Below are positions 27,904-62,565 of a stretch of DNA of 64,000 nt, one piece after another. The notes beneath the pieces are model-generated. The model was not told where the DNA came from, searched no databases, and saw nothing but the letters and a program-made list of their open reading frames with translations. The stretch's first letter is position 1. Each line of letters begins with the position of its first letter. The DNA is from Iodidimonas nitroreducens (GTDB lineage Bacteria > Pseudomonadota > Alphaproteobacteria > Sphingomonadales > Rhodothalassiaceae): contig BAYV01000009.1 of assembly GCA_000710935.1 (NCBI GenBank), forward strand, positions 62,001 through 126,000, written 5' to 3'. The position numbers and the translations under genes were made by a program.

Positions 27904-30822
27904 TTAAAAAGCCGTGCCGCCCGTGGGGGTGAATTCAGCCCGATAAGCTGAGAGGAAAGAGCGGAATTGATCAACGCCGCCCAATTCACCGGCAATCCGC
28001 CCCAATTCACCGGCGGGGGTTCCCGATGGGCTGGTCAATAAATCAAAGACCCCCGCATAATCCCCTTCCATGATCAGGGGGCGATAGCGGGACCGCAATT
28101 GCGCCAAACGTTCCCGCGCATCATTAAAGGAGAGCGCCAAGGCCTGACGGATGAGGATTTCCCGTTCCGGCAAGGCCAGGGGCGCATCATTCCGCCAGCG
28201 ATTGCCCAGCAGCCGATCCGATATAGCGGCCAAAGCAGGCCAATCCTGACTCGCCCAGTAAATATCGGCGCGTAATTGATCCGCCTCGCGCCCTGATGTG
28301 TTTTCCAACAGGACCAAAGCTTCCTCATAGCGCTTTAATTCAGACAAGGCCCGGGCCGAAACAAGGGTGCGCTGCTTTAGCACATCATCAGGCAAGATAG
28401 GCTGGCGGGTGGCGCGCATGATCCGCAGGGTTTCTTCCGGGCGGCTATCCAGCAGATAAATCTTGCCCAATTGTGCAGCAACCAAAGCCTGTGCCGATCC
28501 TTCCAGCCGATAGCTGACCTGATGTTCTAAAAGCTCGGCAGCACGATCCACCAGATCAACGGAAACCAACCGCTCAACCAAATGGCGGATCATCCGATCC
28601 CCGGAACTGCCCAAGGGGGTCAATTCGCTGAAATCATAAAAAAGCCCCAAGGCCTCCAAGGGCGGCAGTTTATCGGCAGCGCCATCAAGAAACAGTCTGG
28701 AAAAAATAGCCGACATCTGTGCCGCCAGATCCCGGGATTGGGCATCGGTGGCAAAAGCCGAAGCCGCAAGTTGAAGGGTTAAAAGCGCCTGACGATATTG
28801 CTCTTGCTGGCGATAAAGATCGGCCAGCGTTTCCAAAACATCCATTTCCAGCCTGTCGCCCCGCCAGGCAAAGCGGAGCCTTTCCAGCCGGGCCGTCGCC
28901 TCGCTGATCGAGATATTGCCCTCGCCATATTCCAGCCTTGCCAATTGCAGGCGGGCTTTTGTGGATAAATGGCGATCCCGGGCGCTGGCGGCATCCTGAT
29001 AACGGGCGCGGGCGGTGGCAATATCCCCCCGGCTTTGCGCCAATTGGCCATAAAGATAATCAACGGCCAGCGCCTGATTGCCGCTCAGCCCCATATTTTG
29101 CAGGCTGGTGATCTGCCCGCTGGCCAGATCATAGGCTTTTTCCGCCAAAGCCGATTGGGCGATAGCGAGATGGATTTTTGCCAGAAAAGGCCGATCATGA
29201 AGGGCCAATGCCTCGGTGCCTCGACGAAAATAATCAAGGGCCAAGGCATGGCGCTCGGCATGATTGGCAGCCAGGGCCCGCCACAGCCATAGATCGGATT
29301 CGGCATCCAGCTTTGGATCGAGCAGGGCCGTCAAAGCCTCAAGAGGCCGATTGAGACCCAACAGAACAACCCCCGAAACGGCCTTCCACTGTAGGGTATT
29401 TTTGATTTCGGGATCGGTATCCGCCAAAAGCGCAAGCATCGCATAAGCTTCGGGATAGGCCCCATGGCCGGCATAAAAACGGGCAAGATCCCAGCGCACC
29501 GATTTACGTGATGCCGCATCCGCCAGGGATAAATCCACCAGCATCTGCTGTTCGCGCGCCGTATAATCGGCTTTTGTGCCCTCATGGGCTCCTTGTCGCC
29601 AAGCCTCAAGATCGATCATCCGCGAGACCACAGTGCCGCCCCGGGCCGCACCCATCCGGGCGGCTAATTCAGAACCTGAAATCGCCAGGCCCCTTTGCGA
29701 GCCGATACTGACCCCGGTGGCAAAACGAACGATCTGAAGCCCATCGGCCACAGGATCAATGACCAACCCTTGAGCTGAAGGCAAAAGATGGAAATCCACA
29801 TATTGATGATCTTGCGCCAGGCCGCGACCATCATCCCCCAAAGGGATAACCGAAAGCCGATCCCCCACCGCCGGATCAACGAGGCTGAGGCGGCCACCCA
29901 CCTCATCGGCGGCAACGAAGATCACCGTTCCCTGCGCCCCCGCCTGACGCACAGGGGTCAATTCCCGGGCAGGAGCCGATGCCCCGCTCACGATGCGCAC
30001 CCGCCAGATTTGGCCCGTGCGCCGCACCGATAAGCCCACAGAACCCACCAGATCGAAACGTAAGGCCGTAAAGCCTTGGGCATCCATCTGTTCGGCACTG
30101 CGCAAGGGGCCGGAATTTCCCTCGGCTACGGATCGCTCCACGGCCGATAAATCAACCCGACGGCTATCCTCGAATATCGTCCAAAGCCAGCCGGATCGCA
30201 GGAAAACAGCCGCCGTGGTGCCCTTTTGCCAGCCAAAAGCAAGCTCGATACCATCCGCATCTTTCACAAGGCTGAGCGGCAACAGATCAGATGAGGCCTC
30301 CGGGCGGTAGCTGAGCGGGGATGAGTTGCTTGCCCCCTGCTCTGCTGCTACCGACCGCATTTCTTGTGGCGAATTTTGGGACGGCGGGGCAGGTTCAGCC
30401 GCGGCCTCAGCCCTGATCCCTTCGGCATTTTGTGCAGGAAAAACATCCAGAACAAGGCTGGCCCCGCTTAGAAAATGCCTGAAGCTGCTTTGGGGATTGA
30501 CCATGATATCAAGGATCGTTCCGGACCCGTTTTGATCATCATCAGCCCGTGCCTCAATGGCCATGATATGGGCTAAAGGATCATTTCTCAGCACACTGAA
30601 ATCAAAAACATGGCTTTGGGTAAACTGAAGCCTGATCCGATCCCCCGCTTTGGTGATCTGATATTGGGGAACCTGCAAAAAATCAAAAACCACCCGGCTA
30701 TAGGCGGGATGCTCGCCCCGGCGAACGGAGATCGCCGCCGTATCATCCTGAGCAAATACGGCTTGATGAGGAGCGAACCAGATGCCCCAGATCAGCAGGA
30801 CCAAAAAGAGCCTAGCCATCAT
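27904..30822 (-). CDS. Large exported TPR protein at the end of the fliL operon
   Basis: From the ATG at 30822 the protein (972 aa) has a signal peptide ending 'PHQAVFA' near residue 24. The first domain (about 30-110, 'HPAYSRVVFDFLQVPQYQITKAGDRIRLQF') resembles an AMIN-type beta domain that binds cell wall or secretin-like partners. A long variable section follows, and from about residue 470 to the end there are helical repeats of TPR type ('GAYPEAYAMLALLADTDPE', 'ALDYFRRGTEALALHDRP', 'QYRQALLTLQLAASAF'). It overlaps the MotB-like gene start-to-stop by about 11 bp and is the last gene of the fliL-fliM operon. A periplasmic scaffold around the flagellar base is likely but unproven. Confidence 0.75.
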   Translation of the reverse strand: MMARLFLVLLIWGIWFAPHQAVFAQDDTAAISVRRGEHPAYSRVVFDFLQVPQYQITKAGDRIRLQFTQSHVFDFSVLRNDPLAHIMAIEARADDDQNGSGTILDIMVNPQSSFRHFLSGASLVLDVFPAQNAEGIRAEAAAEPAPPSQNSPQEMRSVAAEQGASNSSPLSYRPEASSDLLPLSLVKDADGIELAFGWQKGTTAAVFLRSGWLWTIFEDSRRVDLSAVERSVAEGNSGPLRSAEQMDAQGFTALRFDLVGSVGLSVRRTGQIWRVRIVSGASAPARELTPVRQAGAQGTVIFVAADEVGGRLSLVDPAVGDRLSVIPLGDDGRGLAQDHQYVDFHLLPSAQGLVIDPVADGLQIVRFATGVSIGSQRGLAISGSELAARMGAARGGTVVSRMIDLEAWRQGAHEGTKADYTAREQQMLVDLSLADAASRKSVRWDLARFYAGHGAYPEAYAMLALLADTDPEIKNTLQWKAVSGVVLLGLNRPLEALTALLDPKLDAESDLWLWRALAANHAERHALALDYFRRGTEALALHDRPFLAKIHLAIAQSALAEKAYDLASGQITSLQNMGLSGNQALAVDYLYGQLAQSRGDIATARARYQDAASARDRHLSTKARLQLARLEYGEGNISISEATARLERLRFAWRGDRLEMDVLETLADLYRQQEQYRQALLTLQLAASAFATDAQSRDLAAQMSAIFSRLFLDGAADKLPPLEALGLFYDFSELTPLGSSGDRMIRHLVERLVSVDLVDRAAELLEHQVSYRLEGSAQALVAAQLGKIYLLDSRPEETLRIMRATRQPILPDDVLKQRTLVSARALSELKRYEEALVLLENTSGREADQLRADIYWASQDWPALAAISDRLLGNRWRNDAPLALPEREILIRQALALSFNDARERLAQLRSRYRPLIMEGDYAGVFDLLTSPSGTPAGELGRIAGELGGVDQFRSFLSAYRAEFTPTGGTAF

Positions 30823-31549
30823 CGGACGGCTCCCTTTGCCATGCCAGAATTTCAATCTCGACCCGACGCGCCTGCGCCATTTTTTCTGATCTGTTGCCAT
30901 CGGCACTGCGTTCGTCAAATTGGCCCGCACCATAGCCATAGATCGTCATGGGATAATGATAGCCCTTATCTGTCAAAAAATCTGCAACGCTTTGGGCGCG
31001 GCGCAGGGAAAGCTCCCAATTTGAGGCATAAATCTGCCCCCGCATGGGGCTTGGATCAGTATGGCCGGAAATCACGATCCGATTATCGATCCTTCGCAAT
31101 TGCTGGGCCAGATCAGACAAAGCCCCCTGAGCTGCTGAATTGAGCCGGGTAGACCCCAATTCAAAGGATAAATCCGACGACAGGCTGATGAGCACCCGAT
31201 CATCACTGCGGGTGATGTGCGCCATGGGCTGAGCATCGCCGCCTTTTTGGCTACCTGACCATTGATGCGTCAATAAAGCAGCTAAATAATCCAGCCCAAC
31301 CCCCCAGGGCACATAGCGACGAAGCTGATCCGCATCGGGTTTATCGGACTCCACGATCTGCGCCTGATTGGGATTGAATTGCTTACGAAAGGACGCCAGA
31401 ACCGATTCCCATTCGGAAAGCTGCACGGCATTCATGGAAAAGAGCAAAACAAAAAATGTCAGCATTAAAGCCAATAAATCCGCAAGGCTAACCATCCATG
31501 AGGCTGATGTTTGTGATTTTCTGACAAGGATCGGCGGGGGGCTGATCAT
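30812..31549 (-). CDS. MotB-like protein A (OmpA domain, channel Asp retained)
   Basis: One membrane segment at residues about 18-40, 'WMVSLADLLALMLTFFVLLFSMN', matches the MotB helix and keeps the Asp (Asp24) that carries protons in stators. The C-terminal OmpA/MotB domain (about 118-236) is intact: 'ISGHTDPSP', 'NWELSLRRAQSVADFL', 'YGYGAGQFDE', 'RRVEIEI', so it should bind peptidoglycan. No MotA is in the window and the gene lies in the fliL-fliM operon next to a second MotB-like gene (overlap ATGA, 31546-31549). It could be a stator component working with a MotA encoded elsewhere or an accessory motor protein. Confidence 0.85.
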   Translation of the reverse strand: MISPPPILVRKSQTSASWMVSLADLLALMLTFFVLLFSMNAVQLSEWESVLASFRKQFNPNQAQIVESDKPDADQLRRYVPWGVGLDYLAALLTHQWSGSQKGGDAQPMAHITRSDDRVLISLSSDLSFELGSTRLNSAAQGALSDLAQQLRRIDNRIVISGHTDPSPMRGQIYASNWELSLRRAQSVADFLTDKGYHYPMTIYGYGAGQFDERSADGNRSEKMAQARRVEIEILAWQREPSDDG

Positions 31550-32220
31550 GGATCACCCCTGCCGCTCTCCAGGGCAGGCTGTTTGGCCCGCAGATGGATT
31601 TTCAAACGCCGACCGAGGGCCTTTTTATCAAGGCCAATGGCCAAAGCCGATTGTGGAATACCCTCCCCCACAAGGCTCAAGGCCAGGGCATTGGCGCGCC
31701 GATAGGCCAGATCCCCTTCCGCCTTGGCCTGCCCGAAGATGAAAGCGATTTCACGCTTTTCACCATAAGGAGCGCTTTTGATCAGCGTTGATATTTTTTT
31801 GAAAAAGGGCGTGGCCTGCTCGCTCAATTCAGCGCTTTGGGCGAAAAATATGGCCCGGGGATCCAGCTCAAAAACCAGCATATTGCCGCCTTCGGCAGGA
31901 TAAGAGCGCACGGGCCCCGGCATTTCAGAAATCAGCGCACCGGCAAGACGAAAAAATTCACTATCAGATTGAGCATAGCGATCAGGCGGCAGAAAACCCG
32001 GACGCCGCACCGGGGGACCGAATGGACGCTCGAAGGCATCTTCAAGGCTTTGCACCACCGCAACGGAGCGCGCCGTTTCGCGATTTGAAATCACATTCAT
32101 AACAATGAAAAAAGCCAGAAGAATAAGATAGAGCGAAACAAAAAGCCCTATAGATGGATCAATGAAACGGCCCCGCCCATCCCGCTGCTGGTGATGTTCA
32201 TGAAAGGCCGACATGGCCAT
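31546..32220 (-). CDS. MotB-like protein B (degenerate, no channel Asp)
   Basis: A 224-aa protein with a single N-terminal membrane helix, 'SIGLFVSLYLILLAFFIVMN' (about 23-42), resembling that of protein A but with no Asp inside it; aligned on the FF pair, Ser29 stands in its place. The C-terminal half keeps the outline of an OmpA domain ('AIFFAQSAELSEQATPFFKKIS', 'AYRRANALALSLVGEGIP') but the peptidoglycan-contacting GHTD-type motif is replaced by 'IFGQAK'. It therefore probably neither conducts protons nor binds peptidoglycan in the usual way. It begins 3 bp after cheZ and overlaps MotB-like A by 4 bp. Confidence 0.75.
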   Translation of the reverse strand: MAMSAFHEHHQQRDGRGRFIDPSIGLFVSLYLILLAFFIVMNVISNRETARSVAVVQSLEDAFERPFGPPVRRPGFLPPDRYAQSDSEFFRLAGALISEMPGPVRSYPAEGGNMLVFELDPRAIFFAQSAELSEQATPFFKKISTLIKSAPYGEKREIAFIFGQAKAEGDLAYRRANALALSLVGEGIPQSALAIGLDKKALGRRLKIHLRAKQPALESGRGDP

Positions 32221-32223
32221 TCA

Positions 32224-32877
32224 TCAATCAAAACTGGCAAGAAGGGCATCGATATCATCCTGATTATTCCCCTTCCCATCCAATTGGGGCCCATGCTTCA
32301 GGGCATCTTCATTCACGACCTCACCTTTTTCATTGAAGATGTTTTCTTCCTCATCTTCGTGAATCGTGGTGTCGCCAATGGCTTCGGCCAAAGCAGACAG
32401 ACGATCTTCAATATGGCGCAAGACGCTGACAACCTTGGAAACCCGCTGCCCGGTAATATCCTGAAAACTCGATGCTTCAAAGATTTCGGTGCTCAGTTCA
32501 AATAAGCGGTCACCATGTTCGCCGGTAACTTCGCCTGCAAGCTCACCCATCTTATCGGCGGCATCCATAATCTTGCCTGCCGCTTCTTCGGTATGCGCTA
32601 CCACGGCATCCAATTCATCCCGAGCGGTAACGATATGCTTGTCGGTCAGGGTTTTGGGCCGCATGAAAGCCAGTTCATCACGGGCATGGGCAATGAAATC
32701 GAGCAATTCACGCACTTCGGAACCCACATCCGCCTTGGTTTCCATGCCCTGACCATCAAGGGACGTCAGCAGATTGGCGACCACGGACCCGATTTCATCC
32801 ACGGTTACAGCCTCACCCTTTGAGGCTTTAATCGCATTGAGCCTGTCCTCAATGCTCAGAGCCACCGCCTTGGTCAT
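32224..32877 (-). CDS. cheZ: CheZ-type CheY-P phosphatase
   Basis: The 217-aa helical protein has 'SSFQDITGQRVSKVVSVLRHIE' with Asp140 and Gln144, the residues equivalent to the catalytic Asp143 and Gln147 of E. coli CheZ. The C-terminal peptide 'QDDIDALLASFD' after an acidic/Gly-rich linker corresponds to the CheY-binding tail. It would dephosphorylate CheY-P and shorten the switching signal to FliM, which is encoded three genes upstream. A 101-bp gap separates it from motE and contains two TTGACA-like boxes on the minus strand, so it may have an extra promoter. Confidence 0.88.
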   Translation of the reverse strand: MTKAVALSIEDRLNAIKASKGEAVTVDEIGSVVANLLTSLDGQGMETKADVGSEVRELLDFIAHARDELAFMRPKTLTDKHIVTARDELDAVVAHTEEAAGKIMDAADKMGELAGEVTGEHGDRLFELSTEIFEASSFQDITGQRVSKVVSVLRHIEDRLSALAEAIGDTTIHEDEEENIFNEKGEVVNEDALKHGPQLDGKGNNQDDIDALLASFD

Positions 32878-32978: not shown

Positions 32979-33734
32979 CTATTGTGCAGCTGTTTCCTGC
33001 CCCAGCGCCTCAACATTCGGCAGAGGATTGCGCGTGGCAAGCCTTGTGGTCAAAGTTTTTGCCACATCGGTATCCATTTCCGCCAGAAGGGCTGCCATTT
33101 TGCGATCCGACATCCGCAAAGCAACCTGCTGCTGAATATCCATATCAAGGCGTTCGAAAATCGCGGCAGCATCCTTGGGCTTCATGGTTTCATAAACTTT
33201 GACGATCGATTGAATCTGCTGATCTTCCTGATCCTCATGCTTTTCCACCAAGGCAGCGATTTTTTGCTCGATGGTTCGCAATTCAGAAATTTTCTGATCG
33301 ATCCGGCGTTCGGTCGAGGCCAATATCTGCTCACGCAAAGCTGCTTTTTGCTCTTGTTCTTCAAGCTGTTGTCGGCGCTTTCTCAGGTCTTGCAACAGAT
33401 TCATTTCAGACCGGCTGATCCCGGCAATCGCGGCTGTTGCGGAAACCGCTTCATCGTCGCCTGACAAAGGTGCTGATACGGTTGCTTCTGCCGCCCCCGC
33501 CTCATCTTGGGCCTTTTCCTTGGGCTGATCGGCTTTGGGTTCAGCGCCATTGGCCGCAGGGGCGGCCGTTTCCTGGGCACTGGCCTTGCTCACCAAGCGG
33601 CTGAGGTCGCCAGCGAAAGTCCCCGATTTAATGGCGAGGCCCACCACTGCAACCATGATGAAAACCGGCAAAAGCCTCAATCGGGCAAGAGGGCGACCGA
33701 TGCTATTGACTGATAAAATCGCGCGCACGCTCAT
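32979..33734 (-). CDS. MotE family protein
   Basis: After a short cytoplasmic N-terminus comes one membrane segment, 'LLPVFIMVAVVGLAIKSG' (about 21-38), then a periplasmic Ala/Glu/Pro-rich linker, a strong coiled coil (about 108-165, 'LRKRRQQLEEQEQKAALREQ') and a C-terminal MgtE-N/FliG-like module 'VKVYETMKPKDAAAIFERLDMDIQQQVALRMSDRKMAALLAEMD'. This is the layout of MotE, first described in rhizobia as a chaperone for the periplasmic motility protein MotC. In many alphaproteobacteria it lies next to fliM, as here. It overlaps DUF6468 by ATGA. Confidence 0.82.
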   Translation of the reverse strand: MSVRAILSVNSIGRPLARLRLLPVFIMVAVVGLAIKSGTFAGDLSRLVSKASAQETAAPAANGAEPKADQPKEKAQDEAGAAEATVSAPLSGDDEAVSATAAIAGISRSEMNLLQDLRKRRQQLEEQEQKAALREQILASTERRIDQKISELRTIEQKIAALVEKHEDQEDQQIQSIVKVYETMKPKDAAAIFERLDMDIQQQVALRMSDRKMAALLAEMDTDVAKTLTTRLATRNPLPNVEALGQETAAQ

Positions 33735-34162
33735 CGGGCTTCCTTCAGAGCTTTCAAAAGATCGGGCCGACCACTGCGGATCGGGGTCACTTTTTCTTCA
33801 GTTGCCGCCGTTTCAGCCGAATCCCGCGCCGCCTTGGCGGTCAATTTCTTCTCAAGCCGATCGGCCAGATTGTTTCCCGCTTCGGTGATCAGGGTCAATT
33901 CATCGGCCATGGCCCGGGCCTTGCGCGTCGAAGATTGAAGATTCTCATCCGCCTCGCCGCCCATTTTCCGCAGATTTGCAATGGATTCTTTTGCCTGAGT
34001 GGTGGCATTTTCCAAACGATCCACAAGACCAGCCAGTTCATTTTGACCTTTGCGCATTTCTTGCAAACGGCTGTTCACCCGAATACAGGCATAAAGAACG
34101 GCGGCCAGCAGCACGATCAATGTCGCATCAAGCGCAAGACCGGTCATCTCTGTCATCGACAT
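33731..34162 (-). CDS. DUF6468 flagellar-operon membrane protein
   Basis: A small protein (143 aa from the ATG at 34162) with an N-terminal membrane helix 'LALDATLIVLLAAVLYACIRV' followed by a coiled coil with 'RLQEMRKGQNELAGLVDRLENATTQAKESIANLR' and 'TRKARAMADELTLITEAGNNLADRLE'. This is the DUF6468 family, found almost only between fliM and motE in alphaproteobacteria; its function is unknown. AAAGGA lies 10 nt upstream of the start, which is 4 bp past the fliM stop. Confidence 0.8.
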   Translation of the reverse strand: MSMTEMTGLALDATLIVLLAAVLYACIRVNSRLQEMRKGQNELAGLVDRLENATTQAKESIANLRKMGGEADENLQSSTRKARAMADELTLITEAGNNLADRLEKKLTAKAARDSAETAATEEKVTPIRSGRPDLLKALKEAR

Positions 34163-34166
34163 GGTT

Positions 34167-35315
34167 TCATTCCTTTCGACCCGCACGTTTCAAGCGGTTC
34201 ACATTATTCACCTGCACCGCCAGTTTTTGCCCTGATCGTCCCATTCTGGCATTCAGCAAAGTCACCTCGCCGCAGCGCATTTCCAGGCTATCCTGAGGCG
34301 TGACATTCAGCTGAATGGTTTGGCCCACCTGAAGATTCATCACATCCCGCAGGCTCATCACCTGTTCATCAAGCACCGCCCGAAGCTGCAGGTCGGCAGA
34401 CCATAATTCCGTGGCGAGATGGGTTTCCCAGATACTGTCGCGACCGAATTTTTCGCCCATGAAACGCTGCAGCAGCAATTCGCGCACGGGTTCCAATGTG
34501 GCATAGGGATAAAGCAGTTCCAATCGTCCGCCGCGATCTTCCATGTCGATGCGCAGCTTGATCAGCACCGCAGCATTGGGCGGGCGGGCGATGGTGGCAA
34601 AGCGCGGATTGGTCTCCAGCCGATCAAAGGTGAAATTGGTGGGTGATAAAGGCTCGAACGCCGCCGACATATCCTTCAAAATGACCGCGATCATGCGTTC
34701 GACAAGGGTTTGTTCGATGGTGGTATAGGGCCGCCCTTCGATCCGCATCGCCGCCGTGCCCCGGCGTCCACCCAAAAGCACATCGACGATGGAATAAATG
34801 AGCGAGCTATCAACCGTCATCAGGCCGTAATTATCCCATTCTTCGGCCCGGAACACGGCCAGCATGGCCGGCAAAGGAATGGAATTGAGATAATCGCCAA
34901 AACGCACGGAGGTGATATTATCAAGGCTGACCTCGATATTATCAGAGGTGAAATTACGCAAGGAGGTCGACATCATCCGCACCATGCGGTCAAAGATGAT
35001 ATCGAGCATCGGCAGGCGTTCATAGGAAACCAGAGCACTGTTGATCAGCGCCTGAATACCATGAGAATCGCCGCCATCATCCTCGCCATCAAAGCCGAGC
35101 AGGCTATCGATTTCATCCTGATCAAGAACCCGCCCCGGCGCACTGCCCGAATAGCCATCCCCATCATCATCTTCCGCATCGCCAGCGGCCATGGCTTCCC
35201 ATTCTGCAGCCACGGCATCGTCATCGGGGGCATCATCTTCGGCGCCGGCCATAGCAGCCCATTCCGCGGCTACGGCTTCGTCATCGATCTCTTCATTTTC
35301 GGTTTCATCGGCCAT
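34167..35315 (-). CDS. fliM: Flagellar motor switch protein FliM
   Basis: FliM forms the middle of the C ring and receives CheY-P. The CheY-binding motif 'LDQDEIDSLLG' is at residues 64-74, unusually far from the N-terminus because an acidic extension with two copies of D-D-x-AVAAEW-x-AMA (about 11-24 and 31-45) precedes it. The middle domain has 'FDRMVRMMSTSLRNFTSDNIEVSLD' and the GGR region 'VDVLLGGRRG'; the C-terminal SpoA domain ends 'LKVGQTIQLNV..'-like 'NLQVGQTIQLNVTPQDSLEMRCGEVTLLNARMGRSG'. Only 7 bp separate it from fliL. Confidence 0.96.
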   Translation of the reverse strand: MADETENEEIDDEAVAAEWAAMAGAEDDAPDDDAVAAEWEAMAAGDAEDDDGDGYSGSAPGRVLDQDEIDSLLGFDGEDDGGDSHGIQALINSALVSYERLPMLDIIFDRMVRMMSTSLRNFTSDNIEVSLDNITSVRFGDYLNSIPLPAMLAVFRAEEWDNYGLMTVDSSLIYSIVDVLLGGRRGTAAMRIEGRPYTTIEQTLVERMIAVILKDMSAAFEPLSPTNFTFDRLETNPRFATIARPPNAAVLIKLRIDMEDRGGRLELLYPYATLEPVRELLLQRFMGEKFGRDSIWETHLATELWSADLQLRAVLDEQVMSLRDVMNLQVGQTIQLNVTPQDSLEMRCGEVTLLNARMGRSGQKLAVQVNNVNRLKRAGRKE

Positions 35316-35322
35316 GATTGCT

Positions 35323-35832
35323 CTACTGAACCAGCATTTCCCTGAACAGAACGTCTTTGACTTCCACCGGCGCCACCGATGTATTGATCCGAACCAGCAA
35401 TTCTTCCTTCAAACGATAAAGACCCGCCGAGCCATTGAGATCCTGCACCCGCAATTCGCGCAAATATACCTGAAAATCATCAATGATCCGCGGCATTTTT
35501 TCTTCCACCGCCGCCCGGGCACTTTCCCTGTCAACCTCAAGGCTGATGCGGGCCCGCAGAAACTGCTGCTGGCGTTCCCCGGTATTGAGATTGACGACCA
35601 TTTCGGGCAGATCGATAAAGATCAATTGGATCTGCTCCTTCACCGGCTTGTCTTCGGCTATGGGCTCTTCCTTGCCGCCCATCAGCATCGTCAAGACAAC
35701 AATGATCGCGATCAGGACGACAAGAGCCGGAACGGCAATCAGGATAATTTTCTTCCCGCTGAATTTTTTGGTTTGGGGCATATCACCCAAATCGCCAGCA
35801 AGATCATCATCGAGATTATCGTCATCTGCCAT
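35323..35832 (-). CDS. fliL: Flagellar basal body-associated protein FliL
   Basis: A 169-aa single-pass membrane protein: an acidic cytoplasmic start (several Asp), a membrane helix 'IILIAVPALVVLIAIIVVLTMLM' (about 29-51) and a periplasmic stomatin-like domain with 'FIDLPEMVVNLNTGERQQQFLRARISLEV' and C-terminal 'ELLVRINTSVAPVEVKDVLFREMLVQ'. FliL surrounds stators and supports torque. It is the first gene of the leftward operon and lies about 130 bp downstream of a reverse-strand sigma-54-type promoter. Confidence 0.95.
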   Translation of the reverse strand: MADDDNLDDDLAGDLGDMPQTKKFSGKKIILIAVPALVVLIAIIVVLTMLMGGKEEPIAEDKPVKEQIQLIFIDLPEMVVNLNTGERQQQFLRARISLEVDRESARAAVEEKMPRIIDDFQVYLRELRVQDLNGSAGLYRLKEELLVRINTSVAPVEVKDVLFREMLVQ

Positions 35833-61949: not shown

Positions 61950-61978
61950 TTGACATTGTACCAATATGGTTATATTTC
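61950..61978 (+). promoter_or_regulatory. Sigma-70-like promoter of the lysis cassette
   Basis: TTGACA at 61950-61955 is followed by TATATT at 61971-61976 (15-bp spacer) or TATTTC at 61973-61978 (17-bp spacer). It stands 25-30 bp before the endolysin ATG in an AT-rich section. No gene-transfer-agent regulator site could be recognised. Confidence 0.55.
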
Positions 61979-62001
61979 TTCTGATGAAGGAGGAGCAGCC
62001 C

Positions 62002-62565
62002 ATGAACCATGATCAGATTCTCGACGATATTCTCCGCCGCGAAGGGGGCTTTGTGGATGATCCGGATGATCCCGGTGGCCCCACAAATCTTGGGATCACC
62101 TTAAAAACACTGAGCGATTGGCGACAGGCCCCGGCCACTATTGATGATTTGCAGGCCTTGAGCCGGGATGAGGCCAAACAGATTTATGCGGCCCGCTATA
62201 TCAAAGACCCGGGGCTGGACCGTCTGCCCCCGGCTGTGCAACCTATTTTAATCGATGCTGCCATTCATATGGGGCCAAGCGAGGCCATCCGGCTTTTGCA
62301 AAGGGTGCTGAATGCGGTGAGCGGCCCCGCCATCGCGGAAGATGGCCTGATGGGCCCCTTGAGCCGGACGCGGGCGCAATCGGAATATGAACGCCTTGGC
62401 CCGGCCTTTCTGGCAAGCCTGCTTGAAGAGCGCCGCCGTTTTTATTTTCGCCTCACCGCCCGACGCCCGGTTCTGGCAAAATTTTTGCGAGGATGGCTCA
62501 ACAGATTGGCCGATTTCAACGTTGAAAAGAGCCTGTTGAACTCTCGCGAAAGGGGGCTGGCCTGA
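62002..62565 (+). CDS. GH108-family endolysin (N-acetylmuramidase)
   Basis: From the ATG at 62002 (AAGGAGGA upstream) the protein has 187 aa. The N-terminal glycoside hydrolase 108 domain has 'ILRREGGFVDDPDDPGGPTNLGIT' with the catalytic Glu14 in the EGG motif, and a C-terminal PG-binding-3-type part ('PVQPILIDAAIHMG'-like 'VQPILIDAAIHMGPSEAIRLLQRVLN', 'GPLSRTRAQSEYERLGPAFLASLLEERRRFYF'). There is no signal peptide, so export would need the holin encoded next. In Rhodobacter such a pair lyses cells to release gene transfer agents; temperate phages use the same enzymes. Confidence 0.9.
   Translation: MNHDQILDDILRREGGFVDDPDDPGGPTNLGITLKTLSDWRQAPATIDDLQALSRDEAKQIYAARYIKDPGLDRLPPAVQPILIDAAIHMGPSEAIRLLQRVLNAVSGPAIAEDGLMGPLSRTRAQSEYERLGPAFLASLLEERRRFYFRLTARRPVLAKFLRGWLNRLADFNVEKSLLNSRERGLA

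Follow-up and report, generated by a model that had tools for sequence, protein, structure and literature searches.

Two MotB-like genes lie side by side in a flagellar operon of the 64,000-nucleotide stretch of DNA analysed here (the window), one with and one without the channel aspartate of the stator, and the question is what such a pair contributes to the motor. A sequence-only reading had proposed that the two proteins, called A and B, form either a heteromeric non-conducting ring or an asymmetric stator helper, and had regarded them as the best candidate in the window for an undescribed motor sub-system.

Organization of the Flagellar Operon

The operon occupies the minus strand and runs fliL-fliM-DUF6468-motE-cheZ-B-A-TPR. 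Its first gene is fliL (35323-35832, Pfam FliL 76.8 bits), whose presence in the operon had already been pointed out, followed by fliM (34167-35315), recognized from its sequence and operon position, a gene for a single-TM DUF6468 protein (33731-34186), which occupies the same position as PflI in other alphaproteobacteria, motE (32979-33734, MgtE_N PF03448 28.8 bits against a cut-off of 25.9) and a gene for a CheZ-like phosphatase (32224-32877, Pfam CheZ 59.9 bits). Downstream of these lie B (31546-32220, 224 aa) and A (30812-31549, 245 aa), with B upstream of A. Both open reading frames and their 4 bp overlap were found as previously read, and no motA adjoins either gene within the window, again in agreement with that reading. 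The operon closes with the TPR gene (27904-30822). Its listed open reading frame (27904-30939) begins 117 or 120 bases too early, and the true start is probably 30822 or 30819, because the signal peptide is found there. Elsewhere in the window, an open reading frame on the plus strand (61966-62565) resembled a phage-type glycoside hydrolase 108 lysozyme when judged by eye.

Features of Protein A and Protein B

Protein A is a B-subunit of the PomB/MotS type with a plug region, and the earlier description of it as carrying Asp24 and a full OmpA domain was confirmed by the Pfam scores, both above the curated cut-offs (MotB_plug 44.7 bits, OmpA 55.7), and by the alignment. The channel aspartate Asp24 sits in WMVSLADLLALMLTFF and was present in 125 of 126 aligned A rows, the remaining row having a gap. 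The OmpA domain contains GHTD together with NWELSLRRA, which follows the NWELSxxRA pattern; the Asp of GHTD was kept in 93 of the 126 rows and was replaced by Asn in 20 more. Thus the marks of a MotB/PomB B-subunit, a TM helix with the channel Asp and an OmpA domain with the peptidoglycan motif, were all found in A, and its closest solved structures were MotB/PomB chains. Judged by sequence, A shows every feature of a MotB and looks fully able to homodimerize.

Protein B likewise has one TM helix and an OmpA-like periplasmic domain, and it scored under both Pfam cut-offs (MotB_plug 19.6, OmpA 14.7 bits). Its helix region reads LFVSLYLILLAFF, and in a profile-profile alignment with A, which spans 189 columns, Ser29 of B was aligned with Asp24 of A (97% probability, E 6e-11). 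At this position B had Ser in 77, Ala in 28 and Gly in 21 of 126 rows, a small residue every time, and Asp in none, a contrast with A that chance does not account for; GHTD was lost, with FIFGQAK in its place in the window genome, so both losses noted in the first reading of B were borne out. The Arg of the second motif was the sole part retained, being present in 125 of the 126 rows. The AlphaFold model of B (pLDDT 78) shows a long helix together with an OmpA-like domain, and it matched the periplasmic domains of MotB, PomB and MotS with Z of 10-12. The channel Asp and the peptidoglycan-binding motif are therefore absent from B, and the TM helix and the OmpA-like fold are present. Furthermore, the B helix has a conserved surface of its own (Tyr31, FVSLYLI), which could point to a separate assembly. 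Genome annotation is likely to label both proteins just MotB or OmpA-family protein.

Conservation and Spread of the A-B Pair

Of 100 genomes sampled from the order, 51 had B, and at E 1e-3 B was detected in 122 of 289 genomes of the class, the weakest of the latter matches being other OmpA-domain proteins. When the genome contigs were searched with the B alignment, 77 loci were obtained; a single-sequence search of the contigs with A gave no match. Among the holders of B were Kordiimonas, Eilatimonas, Pseudokordiimonas, Terasakiella and one MAG labelled Magnetococcales. A adjoined B in 96 of 98 B loci; of the two exceptions, one falls at the end of a contig (L082) and in the other the A gene was called too long (L129). 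The commonest B-A spacings were -4 (43 loci) and -1 (14 loci). The suggested association with fliL-fliM-DUF6468-motE-cheZ and the TPR gene was also surveyed, and the eight-gene order was retained in most of 97 further loci (L074-L170).

Within the genus A and B diverged at the same pace; B was neither absent nor pseudogenized in close relatives, where it was intact and about as conserved as A. When A and B were placed in one tree with other MotBs, A had a single origin and so had B, but B was long-branched and its root unsure, so the tree does not show that B arose by duplication from A. No genome was seen that keeps A without B. Genome G004, of the same family, was considered as a B-less case and rejected, since a very diverged A and B are in place (C1:1463400-1465137; L228:6774-8137); the A helix there keeps the Asp and the peptidoglycan motif is gone. 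The A-B pair is old and widespread, and the conservation of the B-A adjacency, of the operon and of the non-Asp position means that B is not a decaying copy.

A Probable PomA-Type Partner in a Second Operon

The third MotA of the window genome was found to be of the PomA type (253 aa, C99:122791-123549, outside the window). Its gene is flanked by fliN and flbD in another flagellar operon, fliH-fliN-pomA-flbD, which recurred in nearly all of the 30 loci fetched, the gaps being genes lost at contig ends. Among solved structures, Vibrio PomA is the closest (E 3.5e-38). Residues have been assigned by cryo-EM to Na+ selection (T158, T185, T186) and to rotor contact (R88, D114 and R232 being those mapped here) (PMC10374538). 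The equivalents of these six were invariant in 24 PomA homologues. The Na+-site threonines are missing from H+-driven stators, and the canonical MotAs of the window genome (genes at C103 and C106, with canonical MotB genes at C90 and C106) have Ala at the T158 and Gly at the T185 equivalent. Since PomA keeps the threonines and the canonical MotAs do not, a Na+-driven unit is predicted beside H+-driven ones in this genome. An apparent motor-like pair was also observed in the window genome at C95:24298-27483 (L011), where a MotA/ExbB-like protein of 405 aa is followed by a single-TM coiled-coil protein.

PomA and A/B occurred together in 46 genomes, PomA alone in two, A/B alone in two, and neither in 10. 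Both PomA-alone genomes (G005, G006) are fragmented MAGs. The A/B-alone genomes were G204, which is in 410 contigs, and G021; the latter was rejected as a true case of A/B without PomA, because flbD is absent too and the pomA operon is thus missing there. These counts are not an independent test, since the genomes were partly picked for having B and are related by descent. In one MAG with A and B present, pomA is broken by a frameshift or stop (G075:C27:10044-10792, L208), which may be an assembly error.

Most of 42 genomes carried one canonical MotA with one canonical MotB plus one PomA, and in most of them A and B were the only unpaired B-subunits, extra PomA-like genes having their own adjacent MotB. 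In five genomes (G136, G160, G166, G271 and G346) A and B were the sole MotB_plug proteins; in G346 PomA was confirmed and MotA_N was lacking. For G166, a 97% complete assembly, all 1,727,890 bases (1.73 Mb) were searched, and the only stator genes were those of PomA, A, which keeps the Asp, and B, which has Gly. Flagellins, FliD, FliF, FlhB and the hook protein were all encoded. Because these are the sole stator genes beside a full flagellar gene set, PomA, A and B are most likely enough to drive a flagellum in G166. We strongly infer that PomA and A constitute an ion-driven, torque-generating unit. A purely non-conducting ring of A and B, one of the two early proposals, is argued against because A keeps Asp24 in every sequence, a PomA-type MotA with the Na+-site threonines and rotor-contact charges exists and co-occurs with A/B, and G166 has no other stator genes.

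Scaffold Proteins Encoded with A and B

The MotE of the window has an MgtE_N domain and an N-terminal TM or signal and lies in a flagellar operon, the features which define E-ring MotE/FlgY proteins (PMC13023049); it is a member of the E-ring (FlgY-type) family. The TPR protein was modelled by AlphaFold (pLDDT 87.5) as a signal peptide, an AMIN-like domain with more beta-sandwiches besides, and a TPR superhelix. Its top PDB match was chain 9hmf_K of the periplasmic scaffold of the C. jejuni flagellum (E 6.8e-12), with low TM-scores, as is expected for a long superhelix, and with many unrelated TPR proteins ranking below it. Signal peptide, AMIN domain, TPR superhelix and nearness to motE are the features of the MotK/PflA spoke, and by domain layout and fold the TPR gene encodes a MotK/PflA-like spoke. 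In Cereibacter, rotation requires both MotK (AMIN+TPR) and MotE, and both of them bind MotB2 (PMC10954123).

Proposed Stator and Alternative Explanations

The chances seem to us evenly balanced that A and B supply both B-subunits of a flagellar stator of the Na+ type with a PomA-like A-subunit, the inner dimer giving PomA5-A1-B1. PomA would be the A-subunit and A would supply the ion-binding Asp; B would take the second place in the inner dimer, leaving one ion-binding Asp per stator, not two. Placing B there appears to fit the available facts best, because of the one-to-one coupling and the shared helix and plug homology. In the 5:2 turnstile model, two binding sites act in turn, with ten ions and ten 36-degree steps per turn (PMC9389320). 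One Asp would be expected to halve both, giving about five ions per turn and 72-degree rather than 36-degree steps. The altered OmpA-like domain of B would dock on the MotE/MotK scaffold instead of on peptidoglycan; such docking is guessed from the lost peptidoglycan motif of B and from the operon in which B lies. The whole picture, an obligate heterodimeric PomA5-A1-B1 stator with a single ion-binding Asp and the periplasmic domain of B on the E-ring/MotK scaffold, not peptidoglycan, is put forward tentatively, at somewhat below an even chance. Against a one-site reading speak the homodimer-capable look of A, the separate helix face of B, the published 5:2 model and genome G021.

Alternatively, A may homodimerize with PomA as an ordinary Na+ stator, and a separate non-conducting B dimer may anchor or position these stators on the FliL/MotE/MotK scaffold. 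A has all the features of a homodimer, B combines a distinct conserved helix face with the loss of Asp and peptidoglycan motif, the scaffold proteins are encoded in the same operon, and a MotB held by the scaffold, not by peptidoglycan, is described for C. jejuni (PMC11870540). However, three MotB elements persist in B, namely the membrane helix, the plug-region helix and an OmpA-like fold, and B aligns with A over 189 columns; its translation is coupled to that of A, as expected of a 1:1 partner. We consider a separate B dimer less likely than the heterodimer.

The loss of the Asp with retention of the dimer elements would also suit B as a brake, which joins the dimer and makes the stator inactive or less conductive, the A:B ratio setting the number of active units. 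This is improbable: the two genes share an operon with B first, and their coupled translation fixes that ratio, and no genome was seen to have dropped B while retaining A. Still less probable is that A and B serve canonical MotA and not PomA. Most of these genomes do carry genes for canonical MotA and MotB, but there MotA already comes with a MotB, whereas in most genomes A and B are the only B-subunit candidates for PomA. Canonical MotA as the partner was rejected on G166 and G346, which have A/B and PomA and no canonical MotA. Finally, that B is a functionless degenerate paralogue, as its scores under the Pfam cut-offs might suggest, is scarcely credible and was rejected on conservation: throughout the class B is maintained, it has invariant residues, and it is as conserved as A.

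Relation to Known Systems and Significance

The PomA-A-B stator favoured here shares with Vibrio PomA/PomB (8BRD, 8BRI) the PomA sequence, the Na+-site threonines, the rotor-contact charges and, in A, the helix with Asp24. It differs in that the genes are split over two operons and that an extra B-subunit lacks the Asp and the peptidoglycan motif. Aquifex, too, has a single MotA and a neighbouring pair of MotB genes (motA-motB1-motB2); however, the TM regions there share 97% identity, and a chimera made from either MotB functions in E. coli (PMC4525482), whereas B here has lost the Asp. By description, AglRQS of Myxococcus likewise has two MotB-like subunits and one MotA-like subunit, but it is a gliding motor and A, B and PomA are flagellar; heterodimerization of AglQ and AglS was left open (PMC9389320). 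In Cereibacter Fla2 (PMC10954123) and Campylobacter FlgY/PflA (PMC13023049, PMC11870540), MotE and an AMIN+TPR protein are likewise tied to the stator, but the accessible parts of these papers report no Asp-less MotB, and in Fla2 motA2 occupies the place held here by B-A.

One review records that a magnetotactic genome has just one pomA and one motB, and it analyses them no further (PMC7175107). No description of an Asp-less MotB partner was found in the non-subscription literature searched, nor any paper on dominant-negative MotB D32N. The view of the locus as an undescribed sub-system thus needs to be divided: MotE and the TPR protein are of known kinds, and B, the A-B pairing and the link to PomA are undescribed. 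A and B do belong to one conserved unit together with FliL, MotE and the TPR gene, and an asymmetric stator, the other early proposal, stays plausible.

As read from their genomes, many alphaproteobacteria have a sodium-type motor unit served by a linked pair of MotB-like genes, of which one is Asp-less, and a flagellar motor with PomA, A and B may use one ion site instead of two. The accepted 5:2 model rests on two equivalent Asp sites used in turn, and a natural one-site motor would test that model directly, through step size, ions per turn and torque limit. If true, it would also show a MotB trading wall anchoring for scaffold docking, in bacteria where the location of MotE and MotK within the motor is only now being worked out.
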